Positions 1,947-44,224 of a stretch of 46,946 nucleotides of DNA are shown one piece after another. Position numbers and translations under genes: made by a program. This DNA comes from Meiothermus sp. Its GTDB lineage: Bacteria; Deinococcota; Deinococci; Deinococcales; Thermaceae. Where the stretch lies: the NCBI RefSeq assembly GCF_025056915.1, contig NZ_JANWVH010000014.1:1-46946 (forward strand). Direction: 5' to 3'. Position 1 is the first letter of the stretch. Each line of letters begins with the position of its first letter. Below the pieces are notes generated by a model that was not told the DNA's origin, ran no database searches, and worked only from the letters and a program-made list of their open reading frames with translations.

Positions 1947-2045
1947 TATCGCGCTCTTCACAGACGTGACCGCCCATCCAGGCGGCCACGGTTCTGTTCA
2001 GAACCAGGCTTTCTCGAACCCGAGTGGCTCATAATGAGCGCTCTA
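1947..2045 (+). repeat. Interspersed repeat family 1, short form (copy A)
   Basis: A 99-bp element, the best preserved short copy. Its left end is TATCGCGCTCTTCACAGA; its right end, read inward on the other strand, is TAGAGCGCTCATTATGA, so the ends form an imperfect terminal inverted repeat beginning with TA. Inside are hairpin I (GTGACCGCC, 6-nt loop, GGCGGCCAC) and hairpin II (GGTTCTG, TT, CAGAACC), then GAACCCGAGTGGCTC before the right end. Six other copies or fragments are in this window. No coding capacity is apparent. Confidence 0.8.
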
Positions 2046-16940: not shown

Positions 16941-17023
16941 CGTGGGGAGCAGGGGTTGGAGACCGACCACCCGCTCCCACCCAGTGTTTCCTTGAAGGTC
17001 GGAGGTACGCCTAAAGTTGGTAT
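16941..17023 (+). repeat. Interspersed repeat family 2 (copy 2)
   Basis: Same block order as 2091-2192: GGTTGGAGACCGACCACCC between GTGGGGAGC and GCTCCCAC arms, then TTCCTTGAAGGTCGG and GGTACGCCTAAAGTTGG. It runs directly into a truncated family 1 element. The 130 bp between pyrC and this repeat hold no recognisable feature. Confidence 0.6.
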
Positions 17024-17028
17024 TACGC

Positions 17029-17094
17029 GAAGGCTTTTTCCTTGAAAGAACAGTGGCCGCCTGGGTAGGCGGCCACGTCTGTCAAGCGCGCGAT
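17029..17094 (-). repeat. Interspersed repeat family 1, truncated (copy G)
   Basis: Contains the left half of the element on the minus strand: a degenerate left end (TCGCGCGCTTGACAGA), hairpin I (GTGGCCGCC, 6-nt loop, GGCGGCCAC) and ACTGTTCTTTCAAGGA, a decayed hairpin II. The right terminal repeat is replaced by family 2 sequence. It lies 30 bp past the 3' end of livM. Confidence 0.65.
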
Positions 17095-24185: not shown

Positions 24186-24289
24186 TATCGCGCTTTTCAC
24201 AGAGCGGGCCGCCCATTCAGGCGGCCACGGTTCTATCCAGAACAGACTTATCTCGAACCCGCATAGCTCAGAATGTGAGAAGAGCACCC
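24186..24289 (+). repeat. Interspersed repeat family 1, short form (copy B)
   Basis: Left end TATCGCGCTTTTCACAGA; hairpin I is degenerate on its left arm (GGGCCGCC with GGCGGCCAC); hairpin II GGTTCTATCCAGAACA; then TCTCGAACCCGCATAGCTC and a decayed right end (GTGAGAAGAGCACC). The right end stops about 5 bp from the stop codon of the minus-strand DinB-like gene. Confidence 0.75.
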
Positions 24290-24293
24290 CACT

Positions 24294-24825: not shown

Positions 24826-25023
24826 GAATTCCCCTTTCACAGACGTGGCCGCCTACGAAAACGAGAAGGGACAAAGAGACGTGCCTCACCGAGGTGAAGC
24901 CCGCTTGTCTGCGTTGCGTCTGGGCCGAGACGCACGTTTTCGAGTTTCCAGGCGGCCACTGTTCTGTTCAGGACAAAGCTTGCTTATAGTCGAATGGCTC
25001 TAAATATGTGAAGAGCGCTCTAA
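24826..25023 (+). repeat. Interspersed repeat family 1, long form (copy C)
   Basis: About 198 bp. The left end is decayed (CCCCTTTCACAGACGTGG); the right end GTGAAGAGCGCTCTA is intact. Some 95 bp lie inside the loop of hairpin I, between GTGGCCGCC and GGCGGCCAC. They include two further hairpins, TCACC-GA-GGTGA and GCGTCT-GGGCCG-AGACGC. Hairpin II is TGTTCTG-TT-CAGGACA. The right end contains the stop codon (TAG, minus strand) of the TldE gene. Confidence 0.8.
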
Positions 25024-36488: not shown

Positions 36489-37151
36489 ATGAAGCCTCGA
36501 GCCAAGCTGCAATCCGAACGTCTCGCCGACAAGGCCTACGCTGTGTTGCGCTCCCAGATTTTGAAGGGGGTGTTGCCGCCCGGCCACGCCCTCAGCGTGC
36601 CGGAGCTATCGCGCCAGCTCGGGGTCTCGCGCAGCCCGGTGCGCGAGGCGGTGTTGCAGCTGGTGGCCGAGGGGCTGGCCCGGGAACAGGCCCACAAGGG
36701 AGCGGTGGTGGCCCATTTCAGCCTCGAGGATGCGCTGCAAATCCTGGAGGTGCGCGAGGTGCTGGAGGTGGCCTCGGTGCGGCTGGGCGCCAGCCGGGCC
36801 GCTCCTGAAGACCTGGCCCGGCTGAAGCAGGTGCTGCAAGCCCAGGCCAAGGCTCTTCAGGAGAGCGACTTTGTGGGCTACCAGGCCACCGATCTTCAGT
36901 TTCACAGGCTGCTGGGCACCCTCAGCCACAACCCCGTACTGGAGCGGATGGTGGGGCTGCTCAAGGATCAGTCGCACCTGGCGCTGGAACCGGCAGCCCG
37001 CAGCCTGGCCCAGCTCGAGCGGGGGTACCACGAACACCGCTCGGTGCTGGCTGCCCTCGAGGCCCGCAACGCCGAAGGCGCCGGCCTGGCCCTTCTGAAG
37101 CACTTCAAGCGCATCCGGGAAAGCCTGGAAGGTTGGCTGGTAACGAAATAG
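36489..37151 (+). CDS. GntR-family regulator, FadR/FCD type
   Basis: A 220-aa transcription factor. N-terminal winged helix (about 10-75): KAYAVLRSQILKGVLPPG, LSVPELSRQLGVSRSPVREAV. C-terminal FCD ligand domain (about 85-215) with the His/Asp residues expected for metal and carboxylate binding in DLQFHRLL and YHEHRSVLAALEA. FCD regulators commonly sense organic acids. Its divergent position to the TAXI-TRAP genes suggests that it controls their import. GGAG precedes the ATG. The stop codon TAG is also the first three bases of a family 1 repeat. Confidence 0.92.
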   Translation: MKPRAKLQSERLADKAYAVLRSQILKGVLPPGHALSVPELSRQLGVSRSPVREAVLQLVAEGLAREQAHKGAVVAHFSLEDALQILEVREVLEVASVRLGASRAAPEDLARLKQVLQAQAKALQESDFVGYQATDLQFHRLLGTLSHNPVLERMVGLLKDQSHLALEPAARSLAQLERGYHEHRSVLAALEARNAEGAGLALLKHFKRIRESLEGWLVTK

Positions 37152-37345
37152 ACCGCTCTTCCCATACGATGAGCCATTCGGGTTGGAGAAAGCCTGGTTC
37201 TGAACAAAACAGTGGCGGCCTGGAAACTCGAAAACATGCGTCTGGGCCCAGGCGCAACGCAGACCAGCGTGCCTCACCTCGGTGCGGCACGTCTCTTTGT
37301 CTCTTCTCGTGTTCGTGGGCGGCCACGTCTGTGAAGAGCGCAATA
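37149..37345 (-). repeat. Interspersed repeat family 1, long form (copy D)
   Basis: 197 bp, inverted relative to copy C. The right end TAGACCGCTCTTCCCATA starts on the gntR stop codon; the left end, at high coordinates, is TATTGCGCTCTTCACAGA. As in copy C, about 95 bp sit within hairpin I; the inner hairpins are CACC-TC-GGTG and GCGTCT-GGGCCC-AGGCGC, and hairpin II is GTTCTG-AA-CAAAAC on the plus strand. Over about 150 bp it aligns with copy C essentially without gaps. Confidence 0.8.
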
Positions 37346-40547: not shown

Positions 40548-40612
40548 TATTGCGCTCTTCACAGACCTGGCCGCCCACGAAAACGAGCATGCGTCCGGGC
40601 CGAGACGCATCT
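40548..40612 (+). repeat. Interspersed repeat family 1, truncated long form (copy F)
   Basis: Intact left end TATTGCGCTCTTCACAGA, the left arm of hairpin I (TGGCCGCC), then AAAACGAG and the inner hairpin GCGTCC-GGGCCG-AGACGC, which mark it as a deleted long form. The right half is gone. It lies 77 bp after upp. Confidence 0.7.
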
Positions 40613-43749: not shown

Positions 43750-44124
43750 ATGGAACCCAAACCCTCCACCCTCGATTTTCTGGCCCGGCTCGAGCCCTGG
43801 CAGTTTTGGGGCATTATCGGCCTGTTCGCCGGTGCGGGCGCCTTGCTCCGCTTCCTGGTCGAGAGCGCACAAGGCCCGTGCTGGAAGAGGGCTCTGCGCG
43901 TTTTGAGCAGCGCTTTCTGGGGCACCCTGGCCGCCCTCCTGGTCTCGGACTGGCTCACCCTTTCGCCCAAAAGCCTTCTGGTTCTGGCCACGCTGCTGGG
44001 CTGGGTTGGCTCGGAGGTCACCCTGGGCCAGCTGCTCAGGGTTGTGGGCAAGAAGACCGACCTGAAGCTCGAGGCCCCTAAATCCCCCCGCAAGAAAAAC
44101 GGTCGGAAAAAACCGGTGAAATAG
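43750..44124 (+). CDS. Small membrane protein, holin-like
   Basis: 124 aa, unrecognised by family. Three hydrophobic segments (about 18-37 FWGIIGLFAGAGALLRFLV, 48-68, 73-90), then a strongly basic tail (KSPRKKNGRKKPVK). Small size, two or three helices and a basic C terminus resemble phage holins, and a CI-like regulator is divergent to it, but no endolysin or phage gene is nearby. AGGTG lies before the ATG. It may be a remnant or a host protein under stress control. Its stop codon is the first three bases of a family 1 repeat. Confidence 0.5.
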   Translation: MEPKPSTLDFLARLEPWQFWGIIGLFAGAGALLRFLVESAQGPCWKRALRVLSSAFWGTLAALLVSDWLTLSPKSLLVLATLLGWVGSEVTLGQLLRVVGKKTDLKLEAPKSPRKKNGRKKPVK

Positions 44125-44224
44125 AGCGCTCTTCACGTACTTAGAGCCATTCGACTAGAAAGCTTTGTCCTGGACAGAACAGTGAGCGCCTGGATAGGCG
44201 GCCATGTTTGTGAAGGGCGCGACA
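44122..44224 (-). repeat. Interspersed repeat family 1, short form (copy E)
   Basis: 103 bp, same orientation as copy D. The right end TAGAGCGCTCTTCACGTA begins on the stop codon of the holin-like gene. Hairpin II is TGTCCTG-GA-CAGAACA; hairpin I is damaged on one arm (GAGCGCC … GGCGGCCAT). The left end, at high coordinates, is TGTCGCGCCCTTCACAAA, where the initial TA has become TG. Confidence 0.8.

Follow-up and report, generated by a model that had tools for sequence, protein, structure and literature searches.

We found that short palindromic repeats scattered through a Meiothermus genome are very probably copies of a TA-specific, non-autonomous DNA transposon without genes (a MITE) belonging to the genus Meiothermus. 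The window analysed here, a stretch of 46,946 nucleotides, is contig 55 of the source genome (G000; 3.02 Mb in 191 contigs). The initial annotation had listed seven copies or fragments in it, the full ones sharing terminal inverted repeats and two hairpins (I and II). A repeat search combined with direct reading revealed that all seven places are mutually homologous and lie in both orientations, five being full or near-full and two fragments, and the inverted repeats and both hairpins were seen in the full copies (Table 1). Profile searches with short- and long-form models recovered them at 1947-2045, 17024-17094, 24186-24289, 24829-25022, 37149-37345, 40548-40589 and 44122-44222, their best E-values ranging between 4e-8 and 1.7e-66. 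The copy formerly placed at 24826-25023 was confirmed with altered limits: its start was moved to 24835 because 24827-24834 (AATTCCCC) is host DNA that is also present at the empty site in a related genome (G005).

Table 1. Copies of the element in the window; strand is the direction from left end to right end
Coordinates	Strand	Form	Ends and completeness	Stop codon supplied by right-end TAG
1947..2045	+	short, near-full	small deletion in right end	
17024..17094	-	fragment	left end with hairpin I and a portion of hairpin II	
24186..24291	+	short, full length	right terminus degraded, CCCCA in place of CTCTA	
24835..25022	+	long	about 8 nt of left end missing	minus-strand ORF ending 25020
37149..37345	-	long, full 197 bp	TA at both ends	plus-strand ORF ending 37151
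40548..40612	+	fragment	left end and an arm resembling the medium form	
44122..44224	-	short, full 103 bp	left terminus TG	plus-strand ORF ending 44124

The terminal inverted repeats carry the core GCGCTCTTCACA at both ends. When 29 short copies from several genomes were tabulated, with one 104-nt weak match and all longer or shorter copies omitted, the left end had T at position 1 in 23 copies and A at position 2 in 28, and the right end had A as its last base in 27, preceded by T in 22. On these counts the TA that had been proposed for both ends holds for most copies, while several ends deviate. From TA to TA the short form has a modal length of 106 bp and the long form measures 197 bp; sizes cluster at ~106, 150-167 and 190-197 bp, the difference being additional palindromic arms within the loop of hairpin I, and one related genome (G013) also holds 264-282-bp forms bearing one more arm. 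A 447-kb sample, made up of the window and 20 stretches from contigs known beforehand to hold copies, contained the element at 54 places, including two tandem pairs. Fifteen of these were 95-110 nt, 11 were 146-170 nt and 13 were 186-200 nt long, and the remaining 15 were fragments or other sizes. At 106-197 bp the element is too short for a transposase gene, in agreement with the earlier statement that none is encoded. Short forms in G000 commonly have the loop CATCCA, and the arm of its long forms ends in TTTCCAGG; in G013 both short forms seen (L154 and L157) have CATCCC and most long forms TTTCCCGG. Within each lineage, then, the short and the long forms vary in step. An inverted loop (TGGATGGG or TGGATAGG) was also found (L016, L019, L021, L056 and L059). 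That long, medium and short forms coexist would reflect palindromic arms having been lost or gained, probably through slippage. Tiny remnants consisting of the two inverted ends alone were seen at L017:1022-1058 and L165:292-318.

Filled and empty orthologous sites, which the initial annotation had proposed to compare between strains, were then compared between related genomes, and at three of the nine sites examined a relative was cleanly empty, with one TA in place of the element. The copy at L066:5949-6053 of G000 is flanked by TA on both sides and the G013 counterpart (L099) is empty with a single TA; in G005, G008 and G016 the element is absent and the junctions have diverged. At L066:16560, G005 (L103) is empty, reading AACCC-TA-GCGGG, and G013 (L104) is filled, reading CAGCC-TA-element-TA-GCGGG with a clean duplication and clean TA at both ends; the copy in G000 is degraded. 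The site of the window copy at 24835-25022 is empty in G005 (AATTCCCC-TA-CGCCCC) and in G015, each time with a single TA, and G008 also has no element there, but TC rather than TA. The other six sites had diverged or rearranged junctions or were filled by another element. In addition, 20 G013 regions were chosen for having exact cores in facing orientation; all 19 copies displayed from them started and ended with TA, and the remaining region (L165) held a copy that lacks the TA on its left side. The empty sites with a single TA identify the repeats as a MITE, and several features that define such elements were found together: terminal inverted repeats, a short gene-less body, TA duplication relative to empty sites and a high, dispersed copy number. 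The prominent hairpins and high copy number would also suit a single-strand element of the REP or IS200/IS605 type, in which a Y1 transposase would act on the hairpins. Terminal inverted repeats and TA duplication are not expected of the Y1 mechanism, however, and with both present here, the latter at empty sites, we regard such an origin as scarcely credible.

Some further arrangements were seen at individual sites. Two tandem copies at L028 share one TA. In the near-complete genomes G016, G007 and G013, a long distance separates the genes that flank L066:4679-4841; those that flank L066:13408-13573 are separated in G005 and G013 but lie together both in G016 and in G008. Copies may have recombined at these two places.

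The copies are far more numerous than chance would give. The exact 12-mer end core GCGCTCTTCACA occurred 186 times in G000 and its reversed control not once. Twelve of 18 Meiothermus genomes held the core, with 134 occurrences in G013, 39 in G005, 37 in G003, 30 in G015, 27 in G008, 18 in G002, 7 in G001 and one to three in four further genomes of the genus; six had none, and the reversed pattern appeared 0 or 1 times in each of the 18. A BLAST search in which no genome had more than 13 candidates scored gave matches in 11 of 61 genomes, the source genome included, and in two of 20 genera. The search of related genomes for further copies, suggested in the initial annotation, was thereby carried out, and its reading of the repeats as a mobile MITE is upheld by these matches together with the empty and filled sites. 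Its count of seven is correct for the window, and the family as a whole is far more numerous and extends beyond the source genome. The search of G000 scored 40 of 254 candidates. By extrapolation from the sample, G000 may hold ~300 copies in total after scaling for the exact-core density of the sample (78 per Mb against 61.5 per Mb genome-wide), or ~380 without scaling. Among named genomes, a looser pattern found 12 stretches, all 12 in Meiothermus (M. granaticius, M. hypogaeus and uncultured Meiothermus), and a stricter pattern gave no match; plasmid records, phage records and viral contigs contained no match to the element. The right half of an element was observed at L038 in a genome of another Thermaceae genus (G018), where its TAG closes an open frame of 144 codons whose coding score is high.

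We also examined how the copies lie relative to genes, which were called with a simple hexamer caller of our own rather than a published one. The right end begins with TAG, a stop codon composed of the TA target and the first base of the right end, and the neighbouring gene is predicted to terminate at this TAG in 14 of the 54 sample copies, including those at 24835, 37149 and 44122 of the window. With duplicates and ends having less than 150 nt of flank omitted, 31 of 86 right ends stopped the neighbouring open coding frame, compared to none of 95 left ends. Counted in three sets, the right ends gave 5/20, 21/55 and 5/11 and the left ends 0/23, 0/57 and 0/15; in the other two frames a stop was never supplied by right ends and was supplied by 2 of 95 left ends. 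Two of the 54 copies lay more than half in coding sequence. For the 51 copies left after excluding three without a gene on one side, 24 were situated between convergent genes, where non-coding TA sites would predict a fraction of 0.142 (p 2e-8), and one between divergent genes, where they would predict 0.254 (p 1e-5). Copies that overlapped the 3′ end of a facing gene or lay within 20 nt of it pointed their right end toward the gene in 21 cases and their left end in 3, and beyond 20 nt there was no bias in end orientation. At L081:7921 an open coding frame is stopped by a lone right end, the rest of the element being absent.

Targeting of stop codons beyond chance was considered and rejected: stop-codon use in convergent regions (5/24) equalled the TA-site expectation of 0.216, and the excess in tandem regions (9/26 against 0.118 expected, p 0.002) can be explained by selection against promoter insertions. 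Likewise, random TA insertion followed by selection can account for the context bias without homing. It is therefore improbable that the transposase homes to the TA of TAA or TAG in one orientation, with the right-end TAG restoring the stop; if true, this would be a built-in safe-landing design through which a gene-dense genome could carry hundreds of copies. For a MITE that inserts at TA and is then sorted by selection, we envisage that a transposase supplied in trans would recognize the ends (TA plus NNGCGCTCTTCACA) and join the element into a TA dinucleotide with duplication of the TA, as seen at the orthologous sites. Few insertion points close to genes would be harmless, and the TA within a TAA or TAG stop codon would be among them: a right end reading TAG would rebuild the stop and a left end, reading TAT or TAC, would not. 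The copies left by purifying selection would then lie at the 3′ ends of genes, their right end turned toward the gene.

The strong bias toward gene 3′ ends and convergent genes, together with a consensus that folds into a stable cloverleaf (-49.8 kcal/mol), could point to a functional RNA or terminator element retained at the 3′ ends of mRNAs because of its hairpins. Selection would also yield the 3′-end bias, however, and the orthologous sites are empty in relatives. Moreover, in 42 full copies (32 from G000) the paired fractions did not differ from those of shuffled sequences (0.907/0.906, 0.920/0.921 and 0.878/0.877), and compensated cells (1, 0 and 2) were not above shuffles, so that covariation of paired bases was not detected; an Rfam scan of the window gave no family at gathering score. 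A conserved RNA function is accordingly very unlikely. Given the lack of covariation, the hairpins look like a trait of the mobile ancestor of the MITE that is decaying in each copy.

To which family the mobilizing transposase belongs was approached through the ends of resident insertion sequences (IS). In the initial annotation the TA ends had been taken to suggest mobilization by an IS630/mariner-like transposase. TA duplication is the hallmark of IS630, and such a partner would fit the duplication observed at orthologous sites and the abundance of IS630 in the genus, where the model NF033545 matched 16 of 18 genomes. We found, however, that 44 fetched IS630-type loci (14 from DDE_3 searches in six genomes and 30 from NF033545 searches in the 18 genus genomes, some of them overlapping or truncated at contig ends) contained no facing pair of GCGCTCTTCACA cores at two or fewer mismatches, and their readable ends begin otherwise, for example with TACCAA, TACACC, TAATACC, TAGTAC or TAAGAA. 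In G000, DDE_3 matched none of four candidates and NF033545 gave two weak matches (best E 2.6e-10, frame broken), although repeated IS may be absent from this draft assembly. The proposal of an IS630/mariner-like partner was not borne out by these loci, and mobilization of the same MITE by an IS630/Tc1-mariner transposase now appears rather unlikely. A further 55 IS4/IS5-type loci (25 from DDE_Tnp_1 searches in four genomes and 30 from IS5 transposase searches in the 18 genus genomes) yielded no convincing matching ends. The comparison of termini with IS of the same genomes, another of the checks proposed at the outset, thus gave no convincing match in 99 IS630-type and IS4/IS5-type loci, a total in which several places were fetched twice and many were cut by contig ends.

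A different resemblance came from the IS5 family. G000 contains an open-frame element of this family (NF033580, E 1.5e-53; C169, L194) of 863 bp with ends TA-GAGYGTGTCTGAATAG, and its relatives in G001, G002, G006, G007 and G012 have TA-GAG at one end or both, whereas an IS5-type element in G010 (L208) starts with TAAGAG. Among the 30 IS5-type loci, four had a TA-flanked inverted-repeat pair with GAG, two had pairs that looked like chance and 24 had none. The right end of the Meiothermus element, TA-GAGCGCTCTTCACA, shares TAGAG(C) with some IS5-family ends and differs from IS630-type ends; its left end (TATCGC or TACAGC) has no GAG in common with IS5-type ends. On account of the shared TA-GAG ends, IS5 is a better guess than IS630 for the source of the transposase. 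The shared TAGAG is suggestive only, and we give about an even chance to an enzyme of the IS5 family (NF033580-like, TA-flanked, with GAG ends), more than we give to IS630.

Several loci were inspected as possible autonomous partners and rejected. L220, an IS5-type locus of G017, was alone among the 99 loci in having facing cores; its two pairs, with two mismatches per core and the TA not in place, were judged to be chance. L170 and L182 hold copies of the MITE itself. In the loci screened for core pairs, 31 pairs lay 0.5-3.5 kb apart, many of their ends being visibly copies of the element, and the pair at L081 was inspected with no transposase seen. The larger core pairs of G013, taken from the first 100 of 215 places, were mostly copies with other MITEs nested in them. 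Nesting was observed in L151, L153-L163 and L166 of this genome, where other repeat families lie inside the element and form composites of 394-809 bp; one is ~340 bp with ends GTGGTCTGGTAAC, others have ends TACCAGATTCGG or TACCGGATTC, and the insertions are mostly at the same TTA near the right end of the element. In the window, an IS630-like end (TAATACCAACTTTAGG) at 17017 on the minus strand directly adjoins the fragment at 17024-17094.

Collectively, the data add a dense MITE family to the Thermaceae and provide what would be an example of a mini-transposon that fills a compact genome by occupying and rebuilding stop codons. The many nearly identical copies in G013 could aid identification of the transposase. 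We found no description of the exact element in the open-access literature on Meiothermus and MITEs, consistent with the remark in the initial annotation, and in the available part of a paper on the Thermus mobilome the term MITE appears only within the program name MITE-Hunter (PMC6352166).

TA-ended bacterial MITEs with these traits have been described before, namely Correia, ERIC and RUP, according to the available part of one source (PMC2229807). The Correia/NEMIS element of Neisseria likewise has TA ends and terminal inverted repeats and comes in two main sizes, ~107 and 155 bp, that differ by an internal segment (PMC2229807). The Meiothermus element differs from it in having at least three sizes and nested palindromic arms and in belonging to another phylum, and the two are likened by description, not by sequence. 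RUP of S. pneumoniae resembles it in length (107 bp), TA target, copy number (108) and enrichment between convergent genes (PMC2229807, PMC3049150). The ends of RUP resemble those of resident IS630, whereas no such partner was found for the Meiothermus element; the IS5-family element L194 has TA at both ends and GAG as its first bases, as the Meiothermus element does, but its ends differ past TAGAG and it encodes a transposase. BOX, another repeat of S. pneumoniae, is modular (boxA/B/C). Both enrichment between convergent genes and stop codons supplied by repeats are known from pneumococcal repeats, and for 36 annotated genes the stop codon at the very 3′ end comes from BOX, as given in the available part of the source (PMC3049150). 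Unlike in BOX, the stop in the Meiothermus element consists of the TA target and the first base of the right end.
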